From: Leptothrix sp. (in: b-proteobacteria)
GTDB taxonomy: Bacteria; Pseudomonadota; Gammaproteobacteria; Burkholderiales; Burkholderiaceae_C
Length of the DNA stretch: 64,000 nt
Direction of reading: 5' to 3'
Assembly: GCA_013822685.1 (NCBI GenBank)
Contig: PNKV01000006.1
Location: forward strand, 124,001 to 188,000
Each line of letters begins with the position of its first letter. Position 1 is the first letter of the stretch. Positions 682 through 59,344 of the stretch are shown piece by piece. Position numbers and translations under genes: made by a program. The notes beneath the pieces are model-generated. The model saw only the letters and a program-made list of their open reading frames with translations, had not been told where the DNA came from and ran no database searches.

Positions 682-771
682 GGATAATCGAAGATTGTTC
701 GCCCCAAGTGGTCTGGGGCGCAGATCAACCCCGGCTTGCCGCTTTTGGCAGCAAGCTTCGGGAGGGGCTCC

Positions 772-1497
772 ATGGCTGTCAAGGTTCTGATTCTCGAAGA
801 CAACCCGGTCGCCCGGGGCTTTTTGTGCCGCGTGGTGCGCGAAAGCTTCAGCGACATCAGCAGCATCGCGGAAGCGGGCGATCTGGAAGCCGCCCGGCGC
901 CTGCTGGGCCACAAGGCCGGCGGCCGCGCTGCGGCGTGTGACGACCCCTATCAATTGATCATGGTCGACCTGGAATTGCCGGATGGCAGCGGCCTGGAGT
1001 TGCTGACCGAACTGGCGAATTACCCGGCCACCCGCATCGTGACCACGCTGTATTCCGACGACGAACACCTGTTTCCGGCCTTGCAATGCGGCGCCGATGG
1101 CTACCTGCTGAAAGAAGACCGCTTTGAAGTGCTGGTGGAAGAACTGCAAAAGATCGTGCGGGGGCAACCGCCCCTGTCGCCGGCCATTGCCCGCCGCCTG
1201 CTGACGCATTTCCGCACGGGCGATGGGCTGCTGTCTGCGCATGCACCGGCCGCCCCCGCCGCCGCGCCGGTCAGCGCCCCTGCCCCCCTGGCACCGCTTG
1301 ACCACGAACGGCTGACGCCGCGCGAAAGCGAAGTGCTCACTTACCTCAGCAAGGGCTTCACCATCAAGGAAATTGCCGCCTTGATGGGCATCAAGTGGTT
1401 CACCGTGAATGACCACATCAAATCCATCTACAAAAAACTGAACGTGTCCAGCCGCGCCGAGGCAGCGGTGCTGGCCAGCAAGCAAGGCTTGGTCTGA
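772..1497 (+). CDS. NarL/FixJ-type response regulator (receiver + LuxR HTH)
   Basis: DNA-binding response regulator of 241 residues. The receiver domain starts at VLILEDN, with phosphoacceptor Asp66 in MVDLELPDG, the TLYSDDE switch region and Lys114 in GYLLKED. An Ala/Pro-rich linker (residues ~160-178) leads to a LuxR-type HTH (LTPRESEVLTYLSKGF...IKWFTVNDHIKSIYKKL). I chose ATG 772 over the upstream in-frame 736 because GGGAGGGG precedes it at the right distance and the receiver fold begins at once. The stop is 10 bp before the histidine kinase, so the two form one operon and a likely cognate pair. The regulated genes are unknown; the downstream diguanylate cyclase is an obvious candidate. 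Confidence 0.92.
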   Translation: MAVKVLILEDNPVARGFLCRVVRESFSDISSIAEAGDLEAARRLLGHKAGGRAAACDDPYQLIMVDLELPDGSGLELLTELANYPATRIVTTLYSDDEHLFPALQCGADGYLLKEDRFEVLVEELQKIVRGQPPLSPAIARRLLTHFRTGDGLLSAHAPAAPAAAPVSAPAPLAPLDHERLTPRESEVLTYLSKGFTIKEIAALMGIKWFTVNDHIKSIYKKLNVSSRAEAAVLASKQGLV

Positions 1498-1507
1498 GCG
1501 TCCAGCC

Positions 1508-3835
1508 ATGCCGGCCCTGGACACTTCGCCGCCGCGCGCCGCACCTGACCTGCTGATCGGGGGCTCGGGCTACATCCCCACGCTGGACGAGGTGCTGCAA
1601 GGCTCACACGACCTGCCGCGCTGGATTGGCTGGCGCCTGCGCATGCTGGTGGGCGCGATAGTGATGGGCTTTGTGCTGGTGCTGCTGGTGGGGCAATGGC
1701 TGTCCAGCCAACCCCGGCTGCCCGTGAATTTGCGGGCCACCGCTGAAGGCACCGTCCGCTTGCATTCCGTGGACAACCCGGCCATGCAGCGGCTGGAAGG
1801 GCACATCCTGGAAGGCTTGCGCAGCGAGGTGGTGCAGCCGCACGGCAGCACCCAGGTGCTGGAAACTCCCATCGAGATGCTGGCCTTGCAACGCTCGGGG
1901 CGCTGGATCAGTGATGCCGAGCAACGCCAGCACTTCTTCAATCTGCACCTGGGCGTGGCGCGACTGCTCGCGGCCTTGCCGCCAGACAACAAGGTCGTGC
2001 TCTTGCAATTGGCCAATGCGCCGGACGAGCCCGTGCTGATCAGCCCACGCGGCTGGTCAGGCTTGAGCCCCTTGTTCTGGCTGCTGTCGGCGCTGGCCCT
2101 GACGCTCTTTGCCGTGGGTGCCGTGGTGGTGCTGGCCGGACCGCAATTGCGCAACCTGGCTTACTTCGCCCTCGCCTTGAGCCAGGCGGGGCAGTTGATG
2201 TTCATCGCCGTAGAGACCAACCTCGACCTGTTCCTGCCGGAATGGTTCATGACCCTGGACATGCGCGCCCGGGGTGGCCTGGACCTGATCACCGCAGCCG
2301 CCATGATCCAGGTGGCCGTGCTGCACCCCCGCCGCCTGAAGGGCTGGCCTTACTTCATGGCCCTGGGCTGGGCCGCCGCTGTGGGCCTGGGCCTGACGGC
2401 GATGACCCTGGACCACCCGAGCAGCTGGTTGTGGCTGCACACCGGTTGTGCGGTCATGACCGCGGCCGCGATCATGCTGATGGGCGCGGCCTACCGCGCC
2501 TCGCCACACCCGTTCACGCTGGTCTTGCAGCGCTTTTCGATCATCACACTAGCCACCTGGGTGTTGCTGAGCGTGGCGGTGGCACGGGGCGGTGCGCGGC
2601 CCGACATGCTGCTCAACATCACCACCTTTGGCGTGATGACCTGGCACGTCTTCTTCGCCTCTGAATTGTTGCTGGCGCCCTACCTGTCACGCTCCAAACA
2701 GATCCTGCAAGAGTTTTCGTTGCTGGCCGCGTCCAGCACGGTCGCGGCTTCGTTGGATTTGCTCTTCGTGGCGGTGTTCTCGCTGGGCCAGTTCACGTCG
2801 ATGACCTTGTCGCTGTTTTTGTCGTTCGGGGTGTACATGTCGGTGCGGCGTTGGTTGATGACCCGCCTGCCCGGCCGCGATCCAATCACCATGGAGCGGC
2901 TGTTCGAGCGGCTGTACCGCATGGCGCGCGAGTTGGAGCGCCGACCCGCCAAGACCGATGACTTGCTGGCCCGCCTGATGCGCGAGCTGTTCGACCCGCT
3001 GGAAGTGACCGTGGCGCGTGGCGAGGTGTTCGCTTCTGAGTTGCGCGGCAATGGCTCGGTGATGCTGGTGCGACTGCCCTCCTTGCGGCCCAACCGCGAG
3101 ACGCCCTCGAAGCACGCGCTGGTGCTGAAGCATTCAAACAAAGGCCGGCGGCTGTTCACCTCGGAAGACGCCCGCTTGGCCGACCGGATAATTGACCAGC
3201 TGCACCGCGTGCTGAGCTTTGACCAGGCCGTGGAGCAAGGCCGCAGTGAAGAGCGCGTGCGCATCGCGCAAGACTTGCACGACGACATTGGCGCCCGCTT
3301 GCTCACGCTGATGTACCAGGCGCCCAATGCCAACATCGAGGAATACATCCGACACACGCTGCAGGATTTGAAGACGCTGACACGTGGACTGGCCGCGCAA
3401 AGCCATGGCCTGAGCGAGGCGGCGGGCGAATGGAAACGCGATCTGCACCAACGCCTGGGCTTTGCGCAGTGCGAGCTGACCTGGCAAATGACCCAGGACT
3501 GCGACGTGACCCTGTCGATGGGCCAATGGTCGGCGCTGACCCGCATCCTGCGTGAGCTGGTCAATAACACGATCAGCCATGCCAAAGCCTCGAAGGTGGT
3601 GGTGAACCTGATGCTGGCCAACGACCACCTGTCCCTGACCGTGACCGACAACGGCGTGGGCCGCGCCCCGGAGACCTGGTCTCATGGATTGGGTTTGGGC
3701 GGGGTGCGCAAGCGCGTCAAGCAGTTGGGCGGCACCGTGCGCTGGAGCGAGGCCGAGCCCAAGGGCGTTTGCTGCGAAGTGGTGGTGGAAAACTTCTCGG
3801 CCACAGCGGGGCCAGCGGCAGACAGCGAGCTGTGA
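1508..3835 (+). CDS. Multi-spanning sensor histidine kinase (NarX/DegS-type catalytic core)
   Basis: Membrane histidine kinase of 775 residues. One membrane segment (~45-66) is followed by a ~120-residue, probably periplasmic region. Then come some nine hydrophobic segments (~180-460) that resemble a 7TM-type sensor. The core has a HisKA_3-type H-box, RIAQDLHDDIG, with His591. The ATPase motifs are RELVNNTISHA (N box), DNGVG (G1) and GLGLGGVRKR (G2). All key residues are present, so it should be active. It sits 10 bp after the NarL-type regulator and 48 bp before the double-GGDEF protein, in the same direction. The ligand is not predictable from sequence. Confidence 0.9.
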   Translation: MPALDTSPPRAAPDLLIGGSGYIPTLDEVLQGSHDLPRWIGWRLRMLVGAIVMGFVLVLLVGQWLSSQPRLPVNLRATAEGTVRLHSVDNPAMQRLEGHILEGLRSEVVQPHGSTQVLETPIEMLALQRSGRWISDAEQRQHFFNLHLGVARLLAALPPDNKVVLLQLANAPDEPVLISPRGWSGLSPLFWLLSALALTLFAVGAVVVLAGPQLRNLAYFALALSQAGQLMFIAVETNLDLFLPEWFMTLDMRARGGLDLITAAAMIQVAVLHPRRLKGWPYFMALGWAAAVGLGLTAMTLDHPSSWLWLHTGCAVMTAAAIMLMGAAYRASPHPFTLVLQRFSIITLATWVLLSVAVARGGARPDMLLNITTFGVMTWHVFFASELLLAPYLSRSKQILQEFSLLAASSTVAASLDLLFVAVFSLGQFTSMTLSLFLSFGVYMSVRRWLMTRLPGRDPITMERLFERLYRMARELERRPAKTDDLLARLMRELFDPLEVTVARGEVFASELRGNGSVMLVRLPSLRPNRETPSKHALVLKHSNKGRRLFTSEDARLADRIIDQLHRVLSFDQAVEQGRSEERVRIAQDLHDDIGARLLTLMYQAPNANIEEYIRHTLQDLKTLTRGLAAQSHGLSEAAGEWKRDLHQRLGFAQCELTWQMTQDCDVTLSMGQWSALTRILRELVNNTISHAKASKVVVNLMLANDHLSLTVTDNGVGRAPETWSHGLGLGGVRKRVKQLGGTVRWSEAEPKGVCCEVVVENFSATAGPAADSEL

Positions 3836-3883: not shown

Positions 3884-6547
3884 GTGAATCAAAGGTTGAA
3901 GGACGTGAACAAACGCTGGCCCGGCACGCCGCCGAATGGCCGAAAACTCAGCCGCCGCAACCGGGACGACTCATCGCGACACGAAGCGGCCGACTCGCTT
4001 CGGGGTGCTTCCAGAGCCGACGCACCGCAGGAACCTGCCAGTGCGCCGCCCACGGCATCCGCCTCGGTCGAGGCCGTTCTCGGCCGGGGCCATGCCTGGC
4101 TGCGCTTTCCAACCGCCCTGGAGGCCCAGTTCCAGTCCGACACCCTGGAGCCGCGCCGCCGACTGCTGATGATCTGCGGTCTGCTGGGCATCATTTCAAT
4201 TTATTTCGGCACCCTCAACATCGCCGCGTTGAACCCTGACATCGTTGCCATGGCCTTGCGGGTGGCCCAGGCCAATGTGGCCGCGAGCGCCTTGGGCCTG
4301 GCCGTCGTGTGCTTCATCCCCAAGCTTTGGCGCCGCACGTGGCAGGCCGAGGGGGTGACCGCCTTGATCGCCGTCGGCACCTGCGCAGGCCTCATCAACG
4401 GCTGCATCTTCAGCAGGGCGGACACGACGTTCACCCATTCAGCCGTCCTCGTCAGCGTGGTCATGTACACCTGCATTGCCGCGCGTCAGCGCTTCGTCTG
4501 GTCACTGGGCTGCACGGTTTTGCCCTTGCTGGGATACGCGATGTTCGTGAAGGGCTTCACGCCTCATCAGGAACTGATCGTGATCGCCAACCTCAAGCTG
4601 ATGGCGCTGAGCTTCGCGCTTGCACTGGTGGCCAATTACACGTTCGAGCACCGCGAGCGCCGGAACTGGCTGCTGCGCAAGCTTGAGGAGTACCGGCGCG
4701 GCGCACTGGTCGAGACGACCGAACGCCTTCACATCCTGTCCATTCAAGATCCGTTGACCGGTTTGCTCAACCGCCGCCAGTTCGACACCGACCTGGCCCA
4801 GGCTTGGTCCACGGCGACACGGACCCGGCAAGCTGTGGCCATGCTGATGGTCGACGTGGACTTCTTCAAGCGCTATAACGACACCTATGGCCACCCAGCC
4901 GGGGATGCGTGCTTGGTGCGCGTGAGTCAAGCCCTGACGAAGGTGGCCCAGGCCCATGGCGGCATCGCCGCCCGCTTGGGCGGTGAAGAGTTCGGCCTGC
5001 TGCTCCCCGGCCGCACCCTGGCCCAAGCCATGGACGCGGGGACCGCGCTGTGCGATGGCCTGCGCGACGCCGGCATCGAACACCGGACCTCATCGGTGGC
5101 CGGCCATGTCACGCTGAGCGTCGGAGCGGCGCAGGCTTGGCCGACGCCAGGCAGTCGAGCGTCATCCCTGATCACCTCATCTGACCAAGCGCTTTACCAG
5201 GCCAAGGAATTGGGTCGTGACCGTGTCTGCGCCGCCACCGCAATGCTCGACATGAACCAAGCCGAGGTTCTGCCGCCGGAGCCCTCTCAGTGCGAGGGCA
5301 TGGGCGCGGCCCAAGCTGAGGCCACTGTTCCGCCGGAGGCGGCCTATGTCCACACGCTTCAGGGCAAGTTTCGCTGGCTGCGGTTTCCCGCCGAGCAAGA
5401 GGCCGACTACAACCAGGGCCAGGTCGCCCACCGTCGCGAACGTCTGATGGCCGTGACCGTGCTGGGCCTGCTCATTTACCAAGCCTACGTGCTGAGCAGC
5501 CGCGCGATGTTTCCAGACGTTCCCACCAGCGCGCTCATGGCGCAGTTGGGCATGAGCGCCGTTCTCCTGATCATGGCCATGAGGCTCCACAAACTGGAGG
5601 CCCTGCCACCATGGTGGCGCGAAGCATTGTTCAGCGGCGGCACTTCAGCGACGGCGGTGATGATGCTCTGGGTCTTGTCGCAAAGCCAGCAGCCATCTGC
5701 CTTGAGCTTCTCGGTGTGCTTGGCCTTGATCCCAATGTTCGCGGGGGTGGGCGCACGGCAACCTTTCTGGTTCACCTGCCTGCCTGCCGTGATCACCTGC
5801 GTGGCGGCCGCATATTTCTTGAATCCGCGCGGGGCGCTTCAGACTTTGGTGTTCAACGACAGCATCCTGATGATCGTCAACAACACGGTCTTCACCCTGA
5901 TCCTGGCCTACACGCTGGACCACGGCGCGCGCAAGGCGTGGCTGCTCTCGAACATCGAGCGCTTGCAGCGCCAGTCCTTGGTGGCGGCCACTCAGCGATT
6001 GCACGAGTTGTCCACGCGAGATCCACTCACCGGCATCTGCAACCGCCGCCAGTTCGAAGAAGACCTTCTGCGCATATGGGAGGACGGACTGCAGGCTGAA
6101 AAACCGGTGGCCATGCTGATCATCGACGTTGACTTTTTCAAGCTCTACAACGATGGCTATGGCCACCCCGCCGGCGACCGCTGCCTCAAGCAGGTGGCCG
6201 CCACGATCGACCAGGTGGCGAAAAGCGCCCATGCCCTGGCAGCCCGGCTGGGAGGTGAAGAATTCGGCATCCTGCTACCAGGCGGCGACCACGGGCAAAT
6301 CCTGCAACTGGGCGAACGGGTTTGCGCGGCAGTGCGACAAGCGGGCTTGCCACACCGCCATTCCAAGGTGGCAGGCCATGAGGTCGTGACCGTCAGCCTG
6401 GGAGCCGCCAGCTTGCTACCTGCCAAGGGCGGACACCGTCGCGCGCTGCTGGCCATGGCCGATGACGCGCTCTACCAGGCCAAGAACTCAGGCCGCAATC
6501 GCGTTGCGGCCTTGCGCGTGCCCGGCAGGATGCCCGCCCACGCCTGA
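3884..6547 (+). CDS. Tandem-duplicated membrane diguanylate cyclase (two sensor-GGDEF units in one chain)
   Basis: Predicted c-di-GMP synthase of 887 residues made of two homologous halves. Unit A (~70-455) and unit B (~488-880) each begin with a WLRFP motif and a charged stretch, then about six membrane segments, then a coiled linker (LVETTERLHILS / LVAATQRLHELS) running into GGDEF. Both GGDEF domains have the metal-site motif DVDFFK, the NDxYGHPAGD motif and an intact GGEEF (residues 366-370 and 790-794). Neither has the RxxD product-inhibition site five residues before GGEEF. The start is GTG 3884; no clear Shine-Dalgarno sequence is visible and GTG 3905 is an alternative. It probably belongs to the operon of the preceding kinase/regulator pair. 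Confidence 0.9.
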   Translation: MNQRLKDVNKRWPGTPPNGRKLSRRNRDDSSRHEAADSLRGASRADAPQEPASAPPTASASVEAVLGRGHAWLRFPTALEAQFQSDTLEPRRRLLMICGLLGIISIYFGTLNIAALNPDIVAMALRVAQANVAASALGLAVVCFIPKLWRRTWQAEGVTALIAVGTCAGLINGCIFSRADTTFTHSAVLVSVVMYTCIAARQRFVWSLGCTVLPLLGYAMFVKGFTPHQELIVIANLKLMALSFALALVANYTFEHRERRNWLLRKLEEYRRGALVETTERLHILSIQDPLTGLLNRRQFDTDLAQAWSTATRTRQAVAMLMVDVDFFKRYNDTYGHPAGDACLVRVSQALTKVAQAHGGIAARLGGEEFGLLLPGRTLAQAMDAGTALCDGLRDAGIEHRTSSVAGHVTLSVGAAQAWPTPGSRASSLITSSDQALYQAKELGRDRVCAATAMLDMNQAEVLPPEPSQCEGMGAAQAEATVPPEAAYVHTLQGKFRWLRFPAEQEADYNQGQVAHRRERLMAVTVLGLLIYQAYVLSSRAMFPDVPTSALMAQLGMSAVLLIMAMRLHKLEALPPWWREALFSGGTSATAVMMLWVLSQSQQPSALSFSVCLALIPMFAGVGARQPFWFTCLPAVITCVAAAYFLNPRGALQTLVFNDSILMIVNNTVFTLILAYTLDHGARKAWLLSNIERLQRQSLVAATQRLHELSTRDPLTGICNRRQFEEDLLRIWEDGLQAEKPVAMLIIDVDFFKLYNDGYGHPAGDRCLKQVAATIDQVAKSAHALAARLGGEEFGILLPGGDHGQILQLGERVCAAVRQAGLPHRHSKVAGHEVVTVSLGAASLLPAKGGHRRALLAMADDALYQAKNSGRNRVAALRVPGRMPAHA

Positions 6548-6558
6548 GTGACGCGAGG

Positions 6559-8367
6559 CTAGCCTTCCCACTGCGGCGTGTTCCGCAGGATCTCGTCCAA
6601 AGTGGTCACCCCTTCAGACACCTTCATGACGCCCGACAAGCGCAAGGGACGCAAGCCCTCTTGCGCCGCCGCCTGGCGCAGCTTGGCCATGTCCACCGAC
6701 GGATTCATTGCGGCGCGCAAGGCCTCGGTGATGGGCAGCAGTTCGTACAGGCCCACGCGGCCCTTGAAGCCGGTCATGCGGCATTCCAGGCAACCCACCG
6801 GCTGGTAAGGCCGCAAGGTGCCATTCATGCGCCAGGGCTTGATGGCCGTGGCCAGCGTGTCGGCCGACATGGCCTCGTCCGGCTTCTTGCACACGGGGCA
6901 CAAGGTGCGCACCAGGCGCTGCGCCAGCACGCCGATCACGGTGGCGCTGATCAGGTAAGGCGCCACGCCAATGTCGGTCAGGCGCGTGATGGCCGAGACG
7001 GCGTCATTGGTGTGCAAGGTTGAGAACACCAAGTGGCCGGTCAAGGCCGCCTGGATGGCCATTTCGGCGGTTTCCAGGTCGCGGATTTCGCCGACCATGA
7101 TGATGTCCGGGTCCTGCCTCATCAGCGCACGCAGACCGTCGGCAAAGTTCAGGTCGATGTTGGACTGCACCTGCGTCTGGTTGAACGACGCCTCGATCAT
7201 TTCGATCGGGTCTTCGATGGTGCAGACGTTGACGTCGTCGGTGGCGATGCGCTTGAGCGTGGAGTACAGCGTGGTCGTCTTGCCCGAGCCCGTGGGGCCG
7301 GTCACCAGGATGATGCCGTGCGGGCGCGAGACCAGCCCTTCCCATGTCTGCTGCTCGCTGGGGGCAAAGCCCAAGGCCTCGAGCGACTTGACGGTGTTGT
7401 CAGGGTCAAAAATCCGCATCACCAGCTTCTCGCCAAAGGCGGTGGGCATGGTGGACAAACGCATTTCGATTTCATCGCCCGCGGGGTTGCGGGTCTTGAT
7501 GCGGCCGTCCAGCGGCCGACGCTTTTCAACCACGTCCATGCGGCCCAGCAGCTTGATCCGCGCCGTCATGGCCTGCATCACCGACAGCGGCACCTGGTAC
7601 ACCGTGTGCAGCACGCCGTCGATGCGGAAGCGGATAGCGCCCATCTCGCGGCGCGGCTCCAGGTGGATGTCCGAGGCCCGTTGGTCAAAGGCGTATTGCC
7701 ACAACCAATCCACCACCTGGATGATGCCCTGGTCATTGGCGTCGAGCTGGCGGTTGGTCTTGCCCAGCTCGACCAGTTGCTCGAAGTTGTGGGCGACGCT
7801 GTCGCCGGTCTTCTTGTTGGCGTCGCGGACCGATTTGGCCAGGGTGTAGAACTCGGTGCGGTAGCGCTGCAGATCAAGCGGGCTGGACACCACCAGGCGC
7901 ACGTTCTTCTTGGTGTGCGACAGGATTTCGTCGATCCAGGCCACGTCCAGCGGCTCGCTGGTGGCGATGGTGATTTCGTTCAGGCCCACCTGCACCGGCA
8001 GGCACTTGCGACGCTCGGCATAGTTGATGGACATGACCTCGGCCACGCGGGCCACGTCCACCTTCAAGGGATCGATGCGCAGGTAGCCCAGGCCCAGGTG
8101 CTTGGCCAGCCATTCGGTCAGGGCCTCCAGTTCCAGCACATGGTCGTTGTCGGCCCGCTTCAAACCCATGGCACCCAGGCGCACCAAGGGGTGCTGGGCA
8201 CTGTCGCCCGCGGCGAACCGCTGGGCCACGCGTTCACCCTCTTTGACGGTGATGATGCCGTCCTCGGTCAACCAGGCCAACAGCCACTTCCAGTCCAGCG
8301 GCCCCTTGTGCGTGAGGGAGCGCTTCTTGGCGGGCTTGGCAGGTGCGGACGGGCTTGACGTGGTCAT
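6559..8367 (-). CDS. GspE/PulE/PilB-family secretion ATPase, orphan
   Basis: Type II secretion / type IV pilus assembly ATPase of 602 residues. An N-terminal MshEN-like region (~30-190) precedes the catalytic core. Motifs are RASDIHLEP, Walker A GPTGSGKTTT (Lys363), Asp box EDPIE, Walker B DIIMVGEIRD and the His box TGHLVFSTLHTNDA. A CPVC...CLEC tetracysteine zinc motif is present, as in GspE and PilB. I chose start 8367 because it forms an ATGA overlap with the upstream gene's stop; 8409 is an alternative in-frame start. No other secretion or pilus gene is nearby. It could serve a distant T2SS, which the lipase in this window would need for export, or a pilus. Confidence 0.9.
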   Translation of the reverse strand: MTTSSPSAPAKPAKKRSLTHKGPLDWKWLLAWLTEDGIITVKEGERVAQRFAAGDSAQHPLVRLGAMGLKRADNDHVLELEALTEWLAKHLGLGYLRIDPLKVDVARVAEVMSINYAERRKCLPVQVGLNEITIATSEPLDVAWIDEILSHTKKNVRLVVSSPLDLQRYRTEFYTLAKSVRDANKKTGDSVAHNFEQLVELGKTNRQLDANDQGIIQVVDWLWQYAFDQRASDIHLEPRREMGAIRFRIDGVLHTVYQVPLSVMQAMTARIKLLGRMDVVEKRRPLDGRIKTRNPAGDEIEMRLSTMPTAFGEKLVMRIFDPDNTVKSLEALGFAPSEQQTWEGLVSRPHGIILVTGPTGSGKTTTLYSTLKRIATDDVNVCTIEDPIEMIEASFNQTQVQSNIDLNFADGLRALMRQDPDIIMVGEIRDLETAEMAIQAALTGHLVFSTLHTNDAVSAITRLTDIGVAPYLISATVIGVLAQRLVRTLCPVCKKPDEAMSADTLATAIKPWRMNGTLRPYQPVGCLECRMTGFKGRVGLYELLPITEALRAAMNPSVDMAKLRQAAAQEGLRPLRLSGVMKVSEGVTTLDEILRNTPQWEG

Positions 8368-9155
8368 GTCGTCGGTCGGGGGGTGAAAGTGGACAAAAGC
8401 TTGAGCCATTTTCCGGCCGGCAGCTCAAATCTATTCTGTAAAGTTTCTGCCCGTTCCGCCAGTATTTCTCGGCTTGGCAGGTCGAACCCCTTCCAGGCCA
8501 GCACGATGGTGTTGCCTTCGCGGGTGGGTTTGAGCATGGCCGTGCGGCCGGGGCCGAAGGCCGCGGCAATGCGGGCCGAGCTGGTGGCAAAACTGGCATC
8601 GCGGCCAAACAGGTTCACGCTCATCACGCCGCCATCGTCCAGCAGGCGCCAGCAATCGCGGTAAAAGGCCTCGTCGTCCAGCACGGGGCTGGCCGCTTCC
8701 TGGTCGTACAAATCAACGCACAAGGCACCGGCACTGGCCGCGTGCTCAGCGTTGGCCACGTACTTGGCGGCGTCAAGCTGAAGCACGTTCAAACGCTCGT
8801 CGTTGTCCGGCAGGTTGAACCAGTTGCGGCACACGCCGATCACGGTCGGGTTGAGCTCAACCGCCGTGGTGCTGGCCACTTTCAACACCGCGTGGCAATG
8901 CTTGGTGATGGCGGCCGCGCCCAGGCCCAGTTGTACGCACCGCGTGTCAGGCAAGGCAGACAGGTCGCGCAACAGCAGCCAGGACATCATGCGCTGGATG
9001 TATTCCAGCTCCAGCTTGAGCGGTTTGCTGACGCGCATCGCGCCCTGGATCCAGGGCGTGTCCAGGTGAAGGCATCTCACACCACGGGATTCCGACAGGG
9101 TGGCTTCGGGAAGTTTAAGTTTGCGCTTCACAAGTCGATAAGTTGAAACAGTCAA
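8364..9155 (-). CDS. Spermidine synthase-like / class I methyltransferase-fold protein
   Basis: Protein of 263 residues with the Rossmann core of the spermine/spermidine synthase family. VQLGLGAAAITKH is the nucleotide-binding loop, AVELNP carries the acidic residue after strand 2, and LQLDAAKYV and CVDLYDQ follow at the expected spacing. The family's GGGDG-type loop is replaced by GLGAA, and no obvious polyamine pocket is seen, so a true aminopropyltransferase activity is doubtful. Its stop overlaps the start of the GspE-like ATPase (ATGA), implying translational coupling. It diverges from the carboxylesterase at 9265. Confidence 0.75.
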   Translation of the reverse strand: MTVSTYRLVKRKLKLPEATLSESRGVRCLHLDTPWIQGAMRVSKPLKLELEYIQRMMSWLLLRDLSALPDTRCVQLGLGAAAITKHCHAVLKVASTTAVELNPTVIGVCRNWFNLPDNDERLNVLQLDAAKYVANAEHAASAGALCVDLYDQEAASPVLDDEAFYRDCWRLLDDGGVMSVNLFGRDASFATSSARIAAAFGPGRTAMLKPTREGNTIVLAWKGFDLPSREILAERAETLQNRFELPAGKWLKLLSTFTPRPTT

Positions 9156-43710: not shown

Positions 43711-45438
43711 TCAGCTCGCCAGAACCGTGCGGTTGCGGCCGGCACGTTTGGCCCGGTAAAGGGCCTGGTCCGCACGCTCGATGGTGTCGGCCACTTCCTC
43801 GTCAAAGCGCTGCTCCGCCAATCCGGCCGAAAAGCGGATGTGCAGTTCAGGATGCGCCGGGCACATCAGCTTGCTGTTGACCACCTCCCGCACCCGCTCC
43901 ATCATGGCGTCGGCCTGGCCCACCCTGCACTCGGTCAGCATCAGCAAAAACTCCTCGCCGCCCCAACGCGCGATGACGTCGGACTCGCGCAGCTCGCGCT
44001 GCACGGTGTGGGCAAAATTGCGCAGCACCTCGTCACCCGCGCCATGCCCATGCGTGTCGTTGACGCGTTTGAAGTGGTCGATGTCCAGGATGCCGATGCA
44101 GAACACCCTGCCACCCCGGTCGCTGAACTTCTTCTGCAGCGCCAAGGTTTCCACCATGTGCCGGCGGTTGAACAAGCCGGTCAATTCATCGCGCGTGGCC
44201 AGGGTCTGGATGCGCTCCACCGCGACGGCCAGCTCGTCCTTGCGTGCCCGCAAGCGTGACCGCAGATCACTGAGCTGCCCGGCCAGCAAAGAGATCGTGG
44301 GCAAGGCCGTGCAGGCAAACAGGAAGTGGATCAACTCCTGACGAACCGGGTAGCGCCCGGGCTCCAGGGTGTTCATGGCCAGCATGGTCAAGCCCTGCGC
44401 CACCAAGGCGAAGAAGGCTGCCAACCTGGCTTGCGATGCGGTCAAGTTGAACAACCCGAAGACCAGCACCAGCGCCAGCAACATCAAGCTGGCGCCGCGC
44501 GACTCACCCAAGATGGCGTACGCCCCCACCACGCAGGTGATGGCCACCATGATCTGAGGCAAGGTCAAGGAGGGGTCGGCGAACCGCAGGTTGATCCCGC
44601 TGCGCAGCAAGACGTAGAACAGCAGGCAGTTGCCCATCGTGTAGGCGCCCAGGGCCCAGCCGGCCGTCTCGTTCACCGCGCCCACGCTGACCGAGTAAGC
44701 CAGCACCACGGTGCAGATCACAAAGTTCACCGCCGCCACCGTGTAGCGCTGGATGCGCAGGCGTTGCTTGGGGTCGCTGGAGAACACCAGGTGCATCAGG
44801 AACTGCAGAAAGCCGGAGGTCTCCTCTTCATCGTTGCGGGTGAACTGTGACAAAGTCACGCCGATCACGGCCAGGAGCATGAAGCGCAGCAACTCCTGAG
44901 CCACGTCATAGGTGTTGGGGTGCGCATGCAGCAGCCACACCATGGCCAAACCCATGGCCACGATCGCGTAGGCACTGAGCATGCGGACCTGCAAAGGCCG
45001 CAGGTAGCGAAAGCCATAGAGCAGCAAAGGGGCCAGGGTCAGCAGCATCAGGTCTCGCGCTGCCCCACCCATGGTGTACACCCAAGCCGCGTACGAGATC
45101 GCCATCACCATCTGCGGCATGGTCAGTGAGGCATCCCGAAAGCGCAGGTTCATGTTGCTGCGCAACAGGCCGTAGAAGGTCAGCGTCGTCAGGCCGATGG
45201 CCCCACTGATGGCCAACACCGGCTTGGTCGGCAAATAGCCGTGGCCAGCCACCCAGTTCATCAACAGGCACACCAGCAGGTAGACCAGCCCACCGCCCAG
45301 GCAGCGCAAAATGCGCACACGCTGTTTCCAGTTGTCGCCGAGCAGCCAGACGCCCCATGTGCCCGTGTTGATCCTGACTTGATCGGAATCGGGGCGGGCG
45401 GAAGGCGGCATGGCCATGGATGGTGAGGTCGTGTCCAT
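43711..45438 (-). CDS. Diguanylate cyclase with a tandemly duplicated membrane sensor
   Basis: c-di-GMP synthase of 575 residues. The N-terminal ~390 residues consist of two homologous ~185-residue membrane units. Each begins KQR(V/L)RI(L/Q)R, spans the membrane about six times, and contains LRS(N/G)(M/I)NLRF(R/A)D.SLT(M/L)PQ(M/I) in the same place. One GGDEF domain follows a coiled linker (LSDLRSRLRARKDELAVAVERIQTLATRDELTGLFNRR). It has LDIDHFKRVND, an RESD inhibitory site and WGGEEF, so it should be active and product-inhibited. ATG 45438 is used; a GTG at 45468 is also in frame. It diverges from the DHH gene. Confidence 0.9.
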   Translation of the reverse strand: MDTTSPSMAMPPSARPDSDQVRINTGTWGVWLLGDNWKQRVRILRCLGGGLVYLLVCLLMNWVAGHGYLPTKPVLAISGAIGLTTLTFYGLLRSNMNLRFRDASLTMPQMVMAISYAAWVYTMGGAARDLMLLTLAPLLLYGFRYLRPLQVRMLSAYAIVAMGLAMVWLLHAHPNTYDVAQELLRFMLLAVIGVTLSQFTRNDEEETSGFLQFLMHLVFSSDPKQRLRIQRYTVAAVNFVICTVVLAYSVSVGAVNETAGWALGAYTMGNCLLFYVLLRSGINLRFADPSLTLPQIMVAITCVVGAYAILGESRGASLMLLALVLVFGLFNLTASQARLAAFFALVAQGLTMLAMNTLEPGRYPVRQELIHFLFACTALPTISLLAGQLSDLRSRLRARKDELAVAVERIQTLATRDELTGLFNRRHMVETLALQKKFSDRGGRVFCIGILDIDHFKRVNDTHGHGAGDEVLRNFAHTVQRELRESDVIARWGGEEFLLMLTECRVGQADAMMERVREVVNSKLMCPAHPELHIRFSAGLAEQRFDEEVADTIERADQALYRAKRAGRNRTVLAS

Positions 45439-45483
45439 TCGGGTGATTTCGTCACGTGAACGCCGCACTTGAGCGCCCCTGTC

Positions 45484-50130: not shown

Positions 50131-51168
50131 ATGCTTTCCCTCAAGAACCTTCGCGGACCCCTCCTGCTCCTCGCCACCGCCTTTTTGGGCGGTTGCAAAG
50201 CGGTGGTGATGAACCCTTCTGGCGACGTGGCCGTGCAGCAGCGCGACCTGATCGTCGTCTCCACGGTGCTGATGTTGCTGATCATCGTGCCGGTCATCAT
50301 CTTGACCCTGGTCTTCGCATGGCGTTATCGGCAATCCAACACGGATGCCGAGTACAAGCCCGATTGGGACCACTCCACCCACCTGGAACTGGTGATCTGG
50401 GCCGCCCCGCTGCTCATCATCATCGCCCTGGGCGCCGTGACCTGGATCAGCACCCACACGCTCGACCCCTACCGCCCGCTGCAGCGCGTGGCCGCCGGCA
50501 AGCCCGTGGCCAAGGATGTCAAACCCCTGATCGTTGAAGTCGTGGCCCTGGACTGGAAATGGCTGTTCTTCTACCCTGAGCAAGGCATTGCCACGGTGAA
50601 CGAGCTGGCCGCGCCGGTCGACCGCCCGATCAAATTCAAGATCACCGCCTCCACCGTGATGAATTCCTTCTTCGTTCCAGCGCTGGCCGGCCAGATCTAC
50701 GCCATGCCCGGCATGGAAACCCAGTTGCACGCCGTGATCAATCAACCCGGCGAGTACAAAGGTATTTCTGCCAACTACAGCGGCGCAGGCTTTTCGGGCA
50801 TGCACTTCAAGTTCCATGGCCTCACGGCTGGTGATTTCGACAAGTGGGTGCAGACGAACAAGGCGAGCGGCGCAACGCTCAGCCGCGAAGACTACCTGGC
50901 CCTCGAAAAGCCCAGCGAACGCGAGCCCGTGCGCCGCTACGCCTCCGTGGCCCCTGGCCTGTACGACGCCATCCTGAACCGCTGCGTTGAAAGCAACCGC
51001 ATGTGCATGAAGGACATGATGGCCGTTGACGCACGTGGCGGCCAGGGCAAGCCCGGCACCTTCAACGTGGTGTCGTCCAACCAGTCCAACCGCACATACG
51101 TCGGGGCCCTTTGCACGACGACCAATCTGACCGGCGCCACCCCAGCGCCCGTCTCCCAGCCGCTGTAA
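50131..51168 (+). CDS. cyoA: Cytochrome bo-type ubiquinol oxidase subunit II (CyoA)
   Basis: Quinol oxidase subunit II of 345 residues. Lipobox FLGGC near residue 22, two membrane helices ([19 protein letters not shown] and [19 protein letters not shown]), then the periplasmic cupredoxin domain ([37 protein letters not shown]). The Cu-A ligands of cytochrome c oxidases are absent, which marks a quinol oxidase. A C-terminal extension with Cys ([14 protein letters not shown]) follows. First gene of cyoABCD. Confidence 0.96.
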
Positions 51169-55042: not shown

Positions 55043-56395
55043 ATGTCAAGCCAGACCGAACCGCCGGTGATCGACGGAAGCCCGCCACCGACTGCGGCCA
55101 AGGTGCGAGGCGTCAACCACGCCACCGGGCTGAAAAACATGCAGCTGCTGATCCAGCTGCGCTGGATCGCGGTCGTGGGGCAGATCGTCACCATTGCCGT
55201 GGCGCATTTTGCCTATGGCATGCAGCTGCCCCTCAAGCACATGTTGACGGTGCTGGCCTGCCTGATGGCCTTCAACGTGGCCAGCCAGTTGCATTGGCGC
55301 GCCCACCGTGAAGTCACCAATGGCGAGCTGTTTTTCGCACTGCTGGTCGATGTCAGCATGCTGACCTTTCAGCTTTACCTCAGCGGTGGCGCCACCAATC
55401 CTTTCGCCTTTCTCTACCTGCTGCAGCTGACCTTGGCCGCCCTGCTGCTGGAGGCCTGGTCCACCTGGACCATCTTCGCCATCACCGCCACCTGCTTTGC
55501 CAGCCTGGCCTTGTTCGGCGTGCCCTTGTCATTCCCGCAGGATCAGAACCAGGGCCTGTTCAGCCCTTACATGCAAGGCATGCTGATCTGCTTTGCGCTC
55601 AACGCCGCGCTGCTGGTGATCTTCATCACGCGCATCAGCATCAACTTGCGCAAACGCGATGCACGCCTGGCGAACCTGCGGCAACGCGCGGCCGAAGAAG
55701 AGCACATCGTGCGCATGGGCCTGTTGGCCACGGGTGCCGCGCATGAACTGGGCACCCCTTTGGCCACGCTGGCCGTCATCCTGGGCGATTGGGCGCGCCT
55801 GCCCTCCTTCACGTCCGACCCGGAGCTGCTGCAGGAAGTCGACGAAATGCAAGCCCAGGTTCAGCGCTGCAAAGCCATCGTGAGTGGCATCTTGTTGTCA
55901 GCCGGCGAAGCGCGGGGCGAGTCGTCAGAAAAAACCACCGTCTGCACGTTCATGGACGAACTGGTGGACGAGTGGCGCTCGACGCGGCCCGCCAACGCTT
56001 TTGTCTACGACAACCGGTTTGGCCAGGATCTGACCATGGTGTCTGACTCGGCCTTGAAGCAGACCATCTGCAATGTGCTGGACAATGCACTGGAGGCTTC
56101 TCCCCATCTGAAGCTCGAGGTCACGCGCGATGCCGACACCTTGAGCGTCACCGTCACAGACAACGGCCCCGGTTTCGGCCCCGCCATGCTGGCCAACTTC
56201 GGCAAGCCCTACCAGTCCAGCAAAGGGCGCCCTGGCCGGGGCCTGGGTTTGTTCCTGGCGGTGAACGTGGCACGCACGCTCGGGGGCAGCCTCACCGCGC
56301 GCAACCGGGCCGGGGGTGGCGCGGTCGTGACCCTGAGCCTGCCCCTGTCCGCCATCACTTTTGAGGAAGACGAAGCCCATGGAAGAAGCAGCTGA
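55043..56395 (+). CDS. regB: Redox-sensing histidine kinase, RegB/PrrB/RoxS type
   Basis: Sensor kinase of 450 residues with six membrane segments. The quinone-binding motif GGATNPF is intact (115-121). H-box is AAHELGTPLATL (His234), the RegB-specific form. A conserved-position Cys276 in VQRCKAIVSGIL corresponds to the redox-active Cys of the family. ATPase motifs are NVLDNALEAS, DNGPGFG and GRGLGLFLAVNVA. RegB reads quinone-pool redox state and Cys oxidation and controls respiratory genes. ATG 55043 chosen, 19 bp after SURF1. Its placement behind a ubiquinol oxidase fits that job. Confidence 0.93.
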   Translation: MSSQTEPPVIDGSPPPTAAKVRGVNHATGLKNMQLLIQLRWIAVVGQIVTIAVAHFAYGMQLPLKHMLTVLACLMAFNVASQLHWRAHREVTNGELFFALLVDVSMLTFQLYLSGGATNPFAFLYLLQLTLAALLLEAWSTWTIFAITATCFASLALFGVPLSFPQDQNQGLFSPYMQGMLICFALNAALLVIFITRISINLRKRDARLANLRQRAAEEEHIVRMGLLATGAAHELGTPLATLAVILGDWARLPSFTSDPELLQEVDEMQAQVQRCKAIVSGILLSAGEARGESSEKTTVCTFMDELVDEWRSTRPANAFVYDNRFGQDLTMVSDSALKQTICNVLDNALEASPHLKLEVTRDADTLSVTVTDNGPGFGPAMLANFGKPYQSSKGRPGRGLGLFLAVNVARTLGGSLTARNRAGGGAVVTLSLPLSAITFEEDEAHGRSS

Positions 56396-56921
56396 GCGCG
56401 TGCTGCTCATCGTTGAAGACGACGCGGCATTTGCCCGAACGCTCGGCCGTTCGTTCGAGCGGCGTGGCTATGAAGTCATGCTCGCGTCCAGCCTGGAAGG
56501 GATGACCGAGTTGCTGCAACAGCGCACGCCAGGCTATGCCGTCGTGGACCTGAAGCTCAACAGCGAAGCGTCCGGCCTGGCCTGCGTGCAAAAGCTCAAC
56601 GCACACGATCCCGACATGCTGATCGTGGTCCTGACCGGGTTCGCCAGCATCGCGACGGCGGTCGAGGCCATCAAGCTGGGCGCTTGCCATTACCTGGCCA
56701 AGCCCTCCAACACGGACGACATCGAAGCCGCCTTCGGCCGCGCCGAGGGCGACACCGAGGTCGGCCTGACCAACCGTTCCACCTCGATCAAAACGCTGGA
56801 GTGGGAGCGCATCCACGAGATCCTGGCCGAAACCGGTTTCAACATCTCCGAGACCGCGCGCCGGCTGGGCATGCACCGGCGCACCCTGGCGCGCAAGCTG
56901 GGCAAGCAGCAGGTCAAGTAA
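56379..56921 (+). CDS. regA: Redox response regulator, RegA/PrrA/RoxR type
   Basis: Response regulator of 180 residues, partner of RegB. Receiver: LLIVEDD, Asp57 in VVDLKLNSEASG, and VVLTGFASIATAVEAIKLGACHYLAKPSN. A short linker leads to the C-terminal Fis-type HTH (LAETGFNISETARRLGMHRRTLARKLGK), nearly invariant in the family. ATG 56379 with GAGGAAGA upstream overlaps regB by 17 bp. Members control oxidases, carbon and nitrogen fixation and anaerobic genes. The adjacent cyo operon is a likely target. Confidence 0.94.
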   Translation: MEEAAERVLLIVEDDAAFARTLGRSFERRGYEVMLASSLEGMTELLQQRTPGYAVVDLKLNSEASGLACVQKLNAHDPDMLIVVLTGFASIATAVEAIKLGACHYLAKPSNTDDIEAAFGRAEGDTEVGLTNRSTSIKTLEWERIHEILAETGFNISETARRLGMHRRTLARKLGKQQVK

Positions 56922-56927
56922 GCCCAA

Positions 56928-56942
56928 GAAACACCGTGTTTC
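56928..56942. promoter_or_regulatory. 15-bp palindrome GAAACAC-C-GTGTTTC between regA and opgD
   Basis: Perfect 7-bp arms around a single C. There is no T-run, so a terminator is unlikely. It lies 7 bp after the regA stop and 56 bp before opgD, where a promoter/operator for opgD would be expected. The shape suits a dimeric helix-turn-helix repressor. Confidence 0.45.
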
Positions 56943-56997
56943 ATGCGGCTGGACGTGATTGGATAGCATAGGGGTTCCACCAAGGAGGCCCTAGCGC

Positions 56998-58584
56998 ATG
57001 CAACGACGTCACTTCATCCAGACCGCCGCAGCCCTTGCCGCCGCTGGCATCTCCATGCCGAACCTGATGGCAGCGGAGCGGGCAGGCGCGGTCAGCAAAC
57101 TCGGCAAACCCCAGGCTTTCAGTTATGCGTGGCTGAAGGGGCAAGCCAGCATGTTGGCCGGGCAGGCCTGGCGCCCGCCCACCACCCGTGTGCCCGATGA
57201 GCTTACCCAGCTGGATTGGGACCAGTACCAATCGATCGGTTACCACGATCAACACGCCTTGTGGGCCAAGCAAAAGCGGCGCTTCGAGGTGAAGTTCTTC
57301 CACCTGGGCCGCGGCTTCACCGCGCCAGTGCACATGCACGAGGTGATCGATGGCCAAGCGCAAGAGTTGGCCTACGACCCCAGCATGTTCGATTACGGCA
57401 AAAGCGGCGTGAAGGGCGCTCGCCTGCCCAAGGACCTGGGCTTCGCGGGCTTTCGGGTCAACTTCCACACCGACTGGAAGCGTGATGTGGCGGCCTTCCT
57501 GGGCGCCAGCTACTTCCGCGCCGTGGGGGGCGAAGGGCAATACGGCCTGTCCACCCGCGGCCTGGCCATCGACTGCGGCGCCGAGCGCCCTGAAGAATTC
57601 CCGGTGTTCACCTCGTATTGGCTGGAGCGCCCCGCCCCCAACTCATCCACGCTCACGGTTTATGGCCTGCTCGATTCGCCCAGCGTGGCCGGCGCTTACC
57701 GCTTCGACATCCATCCCGGCGAGATGATGGTGATGGACGTGGACGCGGCCCTGTACCCCCGCAAGCCGATCGAGCGCCTGGGCATTGCGCCATTGACCAG
57801 CATGTTCCAGCACGGCGAAAACGATCACCGCATGGCCAACGATTGGCGCGCCGAGATCCATGACTCGGATGGCTTGGCCATGTGGAGCGGCAACGGCGAA
57901 TGGATCTGGCGTCCGGTCACCAACCCGGCGGGGCTGCGCTTCAGCTCTTACGCAGACGAGAACCCGCGTGGCTTTGGCTTGCTGCAGCGTGATCGCCAGT
58001 TTGACCACTACCAGGACGATGGGGTGTTCTATGAACGCCGCCCCAGCTTGTGGGTAGAGCCCAAGGCGGGTTGGGGCAAAGGCGCGGTGCAGTTGGTGGA
58101 ACTGCCCACCGACGACGAGACCAACGACAACATCGTCGCCTTCTGGAACCCGGAAGCCAAGCTGCAGCCTGGGCAGGAACGCCTGTTCAGCTACCGCCTG
58201 CATTGGGGCGCCAGGCCGCCCGCGCAACCCACCGCCGCGCAGGTGGTGGCCACGCGCACCGGCATCGGCGGCGTGGTCGGCCAAAAGCGCAAGTATTTTT
58301 CGTGGCGCTTCGTGGTGGACTTTGCAGGAGGCGACCTGCCCATGCTGCGCGAAGGCGCGAAGGTGGAGCCCGTGATCACCGTGTCACGGGGGCAAGTGGA
58401 GATCACCTCGGCGCGGCCCTTGAGCTCGATCAACGGTTACCGCGCCATGTTTGACCTGCGCCCCGTCGATGACAGCACGGCCCCGGTGGAATTGCGCCTT
58501 TACCTGAGCTACAACGGCCAGCCCATGAGCGAGACCTGGCTTTACCAATGGACGCCACCACCGGCGGCTCAGCGCCGGGTGTGA
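56998..58584 (+). CDS. opgD: Periplasmic glucan biosynthesis protein OpgD (MdoD)
   Basis: Exported protein of 528 residues for osmoregulated periplasmic glucan (OPG) synthesis. N-terminal RRHFIQTAAALAAAG is Tat-like, as in E. coli OpgD. Family segments are EVKFFHLGRGFTAPVHMHEV, SYFRAVGGEGQYGLSTRGLAIDCG, NDHRMANDWRAEIHDSDGLAMW and PRGFGLLQRDRQFDHYQDD. The OpgH synthase is not here. The LTA-synthase-family membrane sulfatase at 22282 could add substituents to such glucans, but that link is speculative. Confidence 0.94.
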   Translation: MQRRHFIQTAAALAAAGISMPNLMAAERAGAVSKLGKPQAFSYAWLKGQASMLAGQAWRPPTTRVPDELTQLDWDQYQSIGYHDQHALWAKQKRRFEVKFFHLGRGFTAPVHMHEVIDGQAQELAYDPSMFDYGKSGVKGARLPKDLGFAGFRVNFHTDWKRDVAAFLGASYFRAVGGEGQYGLSTRGLAIDCGAERPEEFPVFTSYWLERPAPNSSTLTVYGLLDSPSVAGAYRFDIHPGEMMVMDVDAALYPRKPIERLGIAPLTSMFQHGENDHRMANDWRAEIHDSDGLAMWSGNGEWIWRPVTNPAGLRFSSYADENPRGFGLLQRDRQFDHYQDDGVFYERRPSLWVEPKAGWGKGAVQLVELPTDDETNDNIVAFWNPEAKLQPGQERLFSYRLHWGARPPAQPTAAQVVATRTGIGGVVGQKRKYFSWRFVVDFAGGDLPMLREGAKVEPVITVSRGQVEITSARPLSSINGYRAMFDLRPVDDSTAPVELRLYLSYNGQPMSETWLYQWTPPPAAQRRV

Positions 58585-58600
58585 CGGCGCAAAGGCCAGC

Positions 58601-59344
58601 CTACAGCGCCACGGTGCGGCCCACGTACAAGATCGGGCCGGTGGGCCGCCCGATGGGCGAGCCATTCTCAGGCTCCAGGGTGATCTCGAACAACTGTTGA
58701 GCACCCACGCCAGGCAGCCGCGACACCGGCAACTCCAACGGCTGGCCCGCCTTCACCAAGCCCAATGAGGTGGGGCCGGCAGCGCCTTGCGGCTTGGTCC
58801 AGAACTGCAGCGCACGGCCTGCGGGCACCACACCCGTCTGCCCCATGGGCAGCAAGCGCACCGTGCCGCCTGCATGCACCTCGACCACCCAGCCTGTGCT
58901 TTGATCCTGGGGGCTTTGCAGCACGGCCAGGTAGCGCGCACCTGGCTCTTGGCCTGGCAGGCCCGCGCCTTGGTTCACCAGCAACACCGCCATGACCAGG
59001 CAGACGGCCAGAGCCAAACCACTGACGCCTTGCCACAAGCCCAAGCGCTGCCACCAGGGCGCGCGGCTCGGGGTGCTTTCAGCGCGGGCAGGCCGGGGCA
59101 TGGCGGCGGCCATGGCACTCAGCGTGGCGTCGATGCGTTGCCACAGCTGCGCGCGTGGGGCCGCAGGTGCGGCTTGGGCGCTCAAGCTCAACAACTGGTC
59201 TTGCCAGGCATAGACCTCGGAGTGCAATGCAGGGTCTTGCGCCAAGGCAGCTTGGAAAGCCACTTTGTCTTCTTCGCTCAAGGTGCCCAACACGTACTCG
59301 CCCGTGGTGGCCACCCGGCTTTCAGGGTCCTGAAGGTTGATCAC
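58601..59344 (-). CDS. RskA-like anti-sigma factor
   Basis: Membrane anti-sigma factor of 247 residues for the preceding ECF sigma. GTG 59344 gives the typical start VINLQDPESRVATTGEYVLGTLS and overlaps the sigma stop (GTGA). An ATG at 59386 would overlap by 46 bp. The N-terminal sigma-binding region (~1-90) is followed by one membrane segment (VSGLALAVCLVMAVLLVN, ~115-135) and a periplasmic RskA domain (ARYLAVLQSPQDQSTGWVVEV, PAGRALQFWTKPQG, LPVSRLPGV). No zinc-binding HxxxCxxC motif is present. Presumably inactivated by regulated proteolysis. Confidence 0.88.
   Translation of the reverse strand: MINLQDPESRVATTGEYVLGTLSEEDKVAFQAALAQDPALHSEVYAWQDQLLSLSAQAAPAAPRAQLWQRIDATLSAMAAAMPRPARAESTPSRAPWWQRLGLWQGVSGLALAVCLVMAVLLVNQGAGLPGQEPGARYLAVLQSPQDQSTGWVVEVHAGGTVRLLPMGQTGVVPAGRALQFWTKPQGAAGPTSLGLVKAGQPLELPVSRLPGVGAQQLFEITLEPENGSPIGRPTGPILYVGRTVAL

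Follow-up and report, generated by a model that had tools for sequence, protein, structure and literature searches.

A double diguanylate cyclase of Leptothrix and the genus-wide set of paired 6TM-GGDEF units to which it belongs

The gene described here occupies positions 3884-6547, on the forward strand, of a 64,000-nucleotide stretch of Leptothrix sp. DNA (hereafter the window; positions 124001-188000 of contig C6 in a 4.2-Mb assembly of 29 contigs). It is a single reading frame of 887 codons with zero internal stops and a GTG start, the exact position of which is uncertain. The only Pfam matches in its product at an E-value of 0.001 are two GGDEF domains (two PF00990 hits summing to 287.6 bits, with a cut-off of 23.8). 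When the two halves of the protein (residues 61-456 and 484-880) were aligned with each other they shared 38% identity over 385 amino acids (E 2.5e-84), and the membrane parts, aligned alone, shared 26% identity (E 1.5e-18). Corresponding motifs begin in the first and second half, respectively, at residues 72 and 498 (WLRFP), 289 and 713 (DPLTG), 324 and 748 (DVDFFKxYND), and 366 and 790 (GGEEF). In each of the two GGDEF domains the GG[DE]EF motif is intact, as are the residues for metal and guanine binding; residue roles and numbers follow PleD. The I-site positions read AHGG in the first half and SAHA in the second, so that RxxD is present in neither. The original prediction, that this chain consists of two copies of one 6TM-linker-GGDEF enzyme with both GGEEF and metal motifs intact, is thus borne out by the half-to-half and motif alignments, and the frame runs without a stop from one half into the other.

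An AlphaFold2 model of the chain, of moderate confidence (mean pLDDT 76.8, pTM 0.52), predicts six membrane-length helices in each half, the last of which continues unbroken through the coiled linker as a 61-residue helix leading into the GGDEF domain. In the first unit, the predicted membrane helices span residues 77 to about 250 (4112-4633) and the long helix spans residues 227-287 (4562-4744), followed by the first GGDEF domain at 4742-5224, with its GGEEF at 4979-4993. In the second unit, the predicted membrane helices span residues 503 to about 674 (5390-5905) and the long helix spans residues 651-711 (5834-6016), followed by the second GGDEF domain at 6014-6502, with its GGEEF at 6251-6265; both domains were placed by Pfam and motif alignment, and all of these features lie on the forward strand. 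The joint between the units (residues 448-494, 5225-5365) was modelled mostly with low confidence (pLDDT below 50 at residues 454-482), as were residues 1-56 and 880-887. No Pfam sensor profile, MASE included, scored above cut-off for either half, and one relative gave a sub-threshold MASE8 match (E 0.0049). An arginine-rich RRxRDDxxR motif (3953-3979) precedes the first membrane helix and loosely recurs in three of the four named fused relatives.

Directly upstream of the double cyclase and on the same strand, positions 736-3835 encode a LuxR-type response regulator and a histidine kinase. Tail to tail with it, on the reverse strand at 6559-8409, lies a T2SSE-type (PilB/GspE-like) ATPase with an MshEN domain, a known c-di-GMP receptor. 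Five neighbours (the response regulator, the histidine kinase, the PilB-type ATPase and two further ones) were sought by tblastn at E 1e-20 beside fused relatives, and none was found at any of 19 loci, which carry limited flanks. A local circuit with these neighbours was rejected on this evidence, and the doublet therefore seems to be self-contained. Elsewhere in the window, on the reverse strand at 43711-45468, a single membrane GGDEF protein of 585 amino acids, with an I-site present, adjoins flagellar genes (FlgI, FlgK and flagellin), an HDOD protein and an APH-family protein.

The double cyclase layout is not isolated in its genome. There are 62 matches to PF00990, two of which are pieces of one domain, leaving 61 GGDEF domains, and 26 of these fall into 13 doublets with a domain-to-domain spacing of 1109-1278 nt. 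Six of the doublets are fused proteins (one on contig C6, three on C1, and one each on C3 and C23) and seven are adjacent gene pairs on the same strand (C4, C5, C8, C14, C15, C17 and, at 56211-58786, C19). At a spacing of 900-1400 nt, 7 and 6 doublets, one fused each, were counted in two other genomes of the genus (G158 and G154). Among the 150 of 160 control matches listed, three genomes of other genera in the family gave 0, 0 and 1. Contig C5 also carries a solitary GGDEF frame near 50421-51062 (L103:4437-5066), about 210 amino acids long and lacking a membrane part. It shares 69% identity with the window protein's second GGDEF domain and looks like a soluble copy cut from a double cyclase-type gene.

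To describe the pairing across the genus, 113 doublets (226 units) were collected from 39 of 42 genus genomes, 34 of the doublets, in 20 genomes, being fused. The genus searches each covered the best 150 matches and favoured close relatives. Four arrays of 3-5 units, one doublet with a short unit and 12 lone units, several of which are unrelated neighbours or are clipped by contig ends, are not in the tree. Of 37 short matches for which no neighbour was listed, 30 were inspected; 27 lay in doublets, two by a contig end and one (L232) alone. On a FastTree phylogeny of the 226 units, the label of first or second position changes 6 times versus about 75 times when shuffled, and 0 of 500 shuffles came that low, a contrast that is inflated by near-copies among the units. 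Slower trees gave 4 position changes versus a shuffled mean of 25 for 33 doublets with 10 outside units, and 3 versus a shuffled mean of 24 for the 36 doublets of a second family. For 224 of the 226 units the closest relative is the same-position unit of another doublet, not the partner or an opposite-position unit, and both units share the same nearest doublet in 79 of 113 cases; the median identity within doublets is 0.35. On both the FastTree and the slower tree, the second unit of one doublet (L256) is placed outside the clade expected for second units of the window's lineage. On these phylogenies, first and second units form separate lineages of long standing, and it is the doublet as a whole that is passed down. 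The duplication in the window protein is likewise old by this measure, because either half resembles its counterpart in another species more than it resembles its own partner, and a recent duplication was ruled out on the same ground. An assembly artefact or chance was also ruled out, the fused form of the same lineage being found in at least 13 other genus genomes. Rows of 3-5 GGDEF units were seen at four loci in other genomes of the genus (L270, L293, L294 and L197), the last of which is a fused doublet with a single unit in front.

In 54 of the 79 separate doublets, the stop codon of the first gene and an in-frame start codon of the second share bases as NTGA (ATGA in 43, GTGA or TTGA in 11, and no such overlap in the other 25), which suggests translational coupling. 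Counting changes in either direction, the first-unit tree requires at least five switches between the fused and the separate state and the second-unit tree at least six; the slower tree shows two inside the second family. Every one of the 16 doublets in the window's lineage is fused, as are 15 of the second family's 36, and three further fusions (G189, G181 and G166) occur among separate doublets. When two partners are fused again and again in one fixed order, this is usually a sign that the proteins act together.

Ten core positions of the GGDEF domain are intact in both partners of 101 of the 113 doublets, including all 34 that are fused; the 12 doublets that depart from the core residues are all separate. 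The first unit is degenerate in L226, L228, L239 and L243 (metal aspartate to alanine, N335Q, AGEEF and K442R), and the second unit is degenerate in L245 and L275, which have lost its metal aspartate and other core residues. L274 has core changes in both units, three other doublets have lesser changes, and two were unscored on account of gaps. Since one partner is degenerate in six doublets, these are not ordinary two-GTP heterodimers; their other partner retains most core residues. One partner, it seems, can degenerate and perhaps become a regulator, and pseudo-enzyme partners are possible. The guanine-binding aspartate is retained in 224 of the 226 units and in both window halves. A Hypr GGDEF domain (a cGAMP synthase) was ruled out, as both halves carry aspartate, not serine, at the guanine-binding position, which we take to be D344. 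In the Hypr type, serine replaces this aspartate and cGAMP is made, as described in the available part of the source (PMC6456294).

It had also been suggested that such an enzyme, lacking the inhibitory RxxD motif in both halves, could be free of product inhibition. Throughout the window's lineage (16 of 16 doublets) the motif is likewise missing from both halves, but this is not general, as the second family keeps it in the second half. Tallied as an exact RxxD text motif, the I-site is found in neither half of 17 fused doublets, in the second only of 16 and in the first only of 1. The 79 separate doublets divide into 28 with the motif in both units, 20 with it in the second only, 18 in the first only and 10 in neither, three being unscored; at least one row of the tally, the second unit of L279, is a mis-hit that was counted as lacking the I-site. 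In the second family, RxxD is missing from 31 of 36 first units and present in 35 of 36 second units, the remaining one being a mis-hit; all 15 fused doublets of this family have it in the second half. For the window protein, we infer that canonical product inhibition is missing.

Measured from the end of TM6 to DxLT in a MAFFT alignment, the linkers of the two partners are equal in length in 113 of 113 doublets, with length classes of 37 (75 doublets), 32 (36 doublets) and 15 (2 doublets). Such equality would be needed by a parallel coiled coil; common ancestry accounts for part of it, and homodimers would need it too. Charge complementarity between partner linkers gave no signal (correlation -0.15). 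A model of the monomer had been proposed as a check on the original prediction, and the whole chain, as modelled, resembles single-chain adenylyl cyclases. Foldseek matched it to AC8 (8buz, TMq 0.50 over 902 columns), AC9 (6r3q, 0.50; 9u3r, 0.48) and AC5 (8sl4, 0.51), and the model of a 47% identical relative (L024, pTM 0.55) to AC8 (0.52), AC9 (0.42-0.51) and AC5 (0.50). These matches are modest (TM 0.42-0.52, RMSD 11-16 Å, 10-13% identity). Single halves were matched to the diguanylate cyclase ImcA over about 400 columns with a TMt of only 0.42-0.46, and therefore the angle between membrane part and GGDEF domain differs or is uncertain. The clear matches in a viral fold library were single-GGDEF proteins.

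The general view of diguanylate cyclases is that they are homodimers, activated when two identical halves come together. We consider it probable that the window gene instead encodes a covalently joined, cis-encoded heteromeric diguanylate cyclase. Its halves would derive from two distinct subunits, co-inherited as a doublet, that have become one chain in the window's lineage. The two 6TM sensors would pack against each other, the helices beneath them, equal in length, would form a parallel coiled coil, and each GGDEF domain would hold one GTP, with both together making one c-di-GMP, so that the layout would work as in mammalian membrane adenylyl cyclases (6TM-C1-6TM-C2). The single-chain dimer of the original prediction gains comparative support from the parallel lineages, the gene overlaps, the repeated switches of the fused state, the intact sites, the equal linkers and the predicted fold; pairing within the chain, c-di-GMP as the product and two sensors gating one site are what we infer from these. 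The further suggestion that a fused pair is free of dimerisation control should be tempered, as the sensors could still hold the joined GGDEF domains apart.

A swapped homodimer would account for the intact halves, the co-inheritance and the equal linkers as well. In it, two chains would associate through like halves to form two homotypic sites, first-first and second-second, and fusion would do no more than tie two independent cyclases together. Related 6TM-GGDEF proteins are indeed homodimeric (ImcA) or single units (Acinetobacter), and the six clearly degenerate separate doublets could not work as an ordinary two-GTP heterodimer. We nevertheless regard this arrangement as unlikely, because on its own it leaves unexplained the fixed-order co-inheritance, the gene overlap and the repeated joining, and the predicted whole-chain match to adenylyl cyclases was reached by a monomer model without a second chain. 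Less probable by a clear margin is a chain in which one half is mainly a regulator, dimerisation occurring through one GGDEF pair while the other modulates it by GTP binding or by competing. Separate doublets with a degenerate partner do occur, and GGDEF domains of different E. coli proteins bind in two-hybrid tests, with mutual regulation proposed (PMC5635695, seen in part); against such a division of labour stand the core residues, which are intact in both halves of all 34 fused doublets. A functionally neutral tandem duplication or read-through, without coupling, is very improbable even though tandem cyclase duplications are known, for example the seven-gene PAS-GGDEF cluster of Leptospira (PMC12943098, in the part available), as the window's lineage is fused throughout with both sites intact and the halves are not recent copies.

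A joined heteromeric cyclase can be set beside several known systems. ImcA of Pseudomonas aeruginosa (PDB 8wcn) is the nearest solved relative of a half; it has the 6TM-linker-GGDEF layout, and window residues 484-875 span nearly all of it (E 1.6e-38). Unlike the window protein, with two units per chain, ImcA has one unit per chain and forms a homodimer. According to the accessible text of PMC10904736, the diguanylate cyclase domains in its cryo-EM homodimer make no polar contact with each other, and a flexible hinge loop lies between membrane part and GGDEF domain, where the window model predicts one continuous helix. The mammalian membrane adenylyl cyclases AC5, AC8 and AC9 share the single-chain order 6TM-catalytic-6TM-catalytic, which on the window side is predicted only, but they have another catalytic family and another product; the window protein has no Pfam match to a class III catalytic domain, only to GGDEF. 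This likeness is likely a convergence of layout rather than membership. Mycobacterial Cya (Rv1625c), a 6TM single-unit cyclase that must dimerise, is taken in the portion of PMC9433096 available as the ancestor of the single-chain mammalian enzymes; it corresponds to a half-molecule, and in the genus studied here separate and joined pairs coexist. The asymmetric variant of PadC (PDB 6et7, 'activated heterodimer') is likewise an asymmetric cyclase dimer but, as far as the material available on it goes, a variant of one homodimeric protein and not two dedicated subunits. The heteromeric GGDEF contacts of E. coli differ in involving unlinked genes and a proposed competition, and no co-inherited pair or fusion is described in the part of PMC5635695 that was available. 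No heteromeric or end-to-end duplicated diguanylate cyclase was found in the literature searched, which lay mostly outside subscription papers and included part of PMC7825114.

The larger finding is the genus-wide set of dedicated cyclase pairs. By a narrow balance, we lean towards the view that the genus runs a large part of its c-di-GMP synthesis through obligate heteromeric cyclases composed of co-inherited, often translationally coupled 6TM-GGDEF subunits, and that several lineages have fused the pair, converging on the architecture of animal membrane adenylyl cyclases, in which a pair of diverged sensors would sit above a single active site and one family would have a one-sided I-site. 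If this is true, dedicated pairs would let two signals be integrated by one active site in c-di-GMP synthesis. Pairs that are separate, overlapping, fused or partly degenerate occur side by side in the genus and offer a natural series for studying the passage from homodimer to single-chain heteromer, a step that has only been inferred for adenylyl cyclases. The joined enzyme would also permit mutation of a single half-site, which is impossible in a homodimer.

The original prediction had suggested a search for the same architecture, and the fused form does recur, at strict cut-offs only in the genus. At those cut-offs, which would miss distant or separate pairs, no fused form was found outside the genus in 150 genomes of the family, 399 of the order (with the second family as query) or 369 of the class, and a plasmid collection gave no match at E 1e-50. 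In a species-wide pattern scan, in which 80 loci were kept, the full-length fused relatives were four Burkholderiales contigs only, 47-66% identical; the named relatives are Aquabacterium and Burkholderiales. Three of these four contigs (L021, L022 and L023) seem to represent the assemblies G160, G189 and G182 again and are not independent. Three tandem 6TM-GGDEF genes are present in Agitococcus lubricus (L036:5805-9830), and a Moraxellaceae contig carries three GGDEF units in a row (L052:1-3378). Between Agitococcus and this other Moraxellaceae genome, the second and third units are orthologous in order (support 100/100 and 100/99), and Acinetobacter has single units. Pairing may have arisen in Moraxellaceae too.
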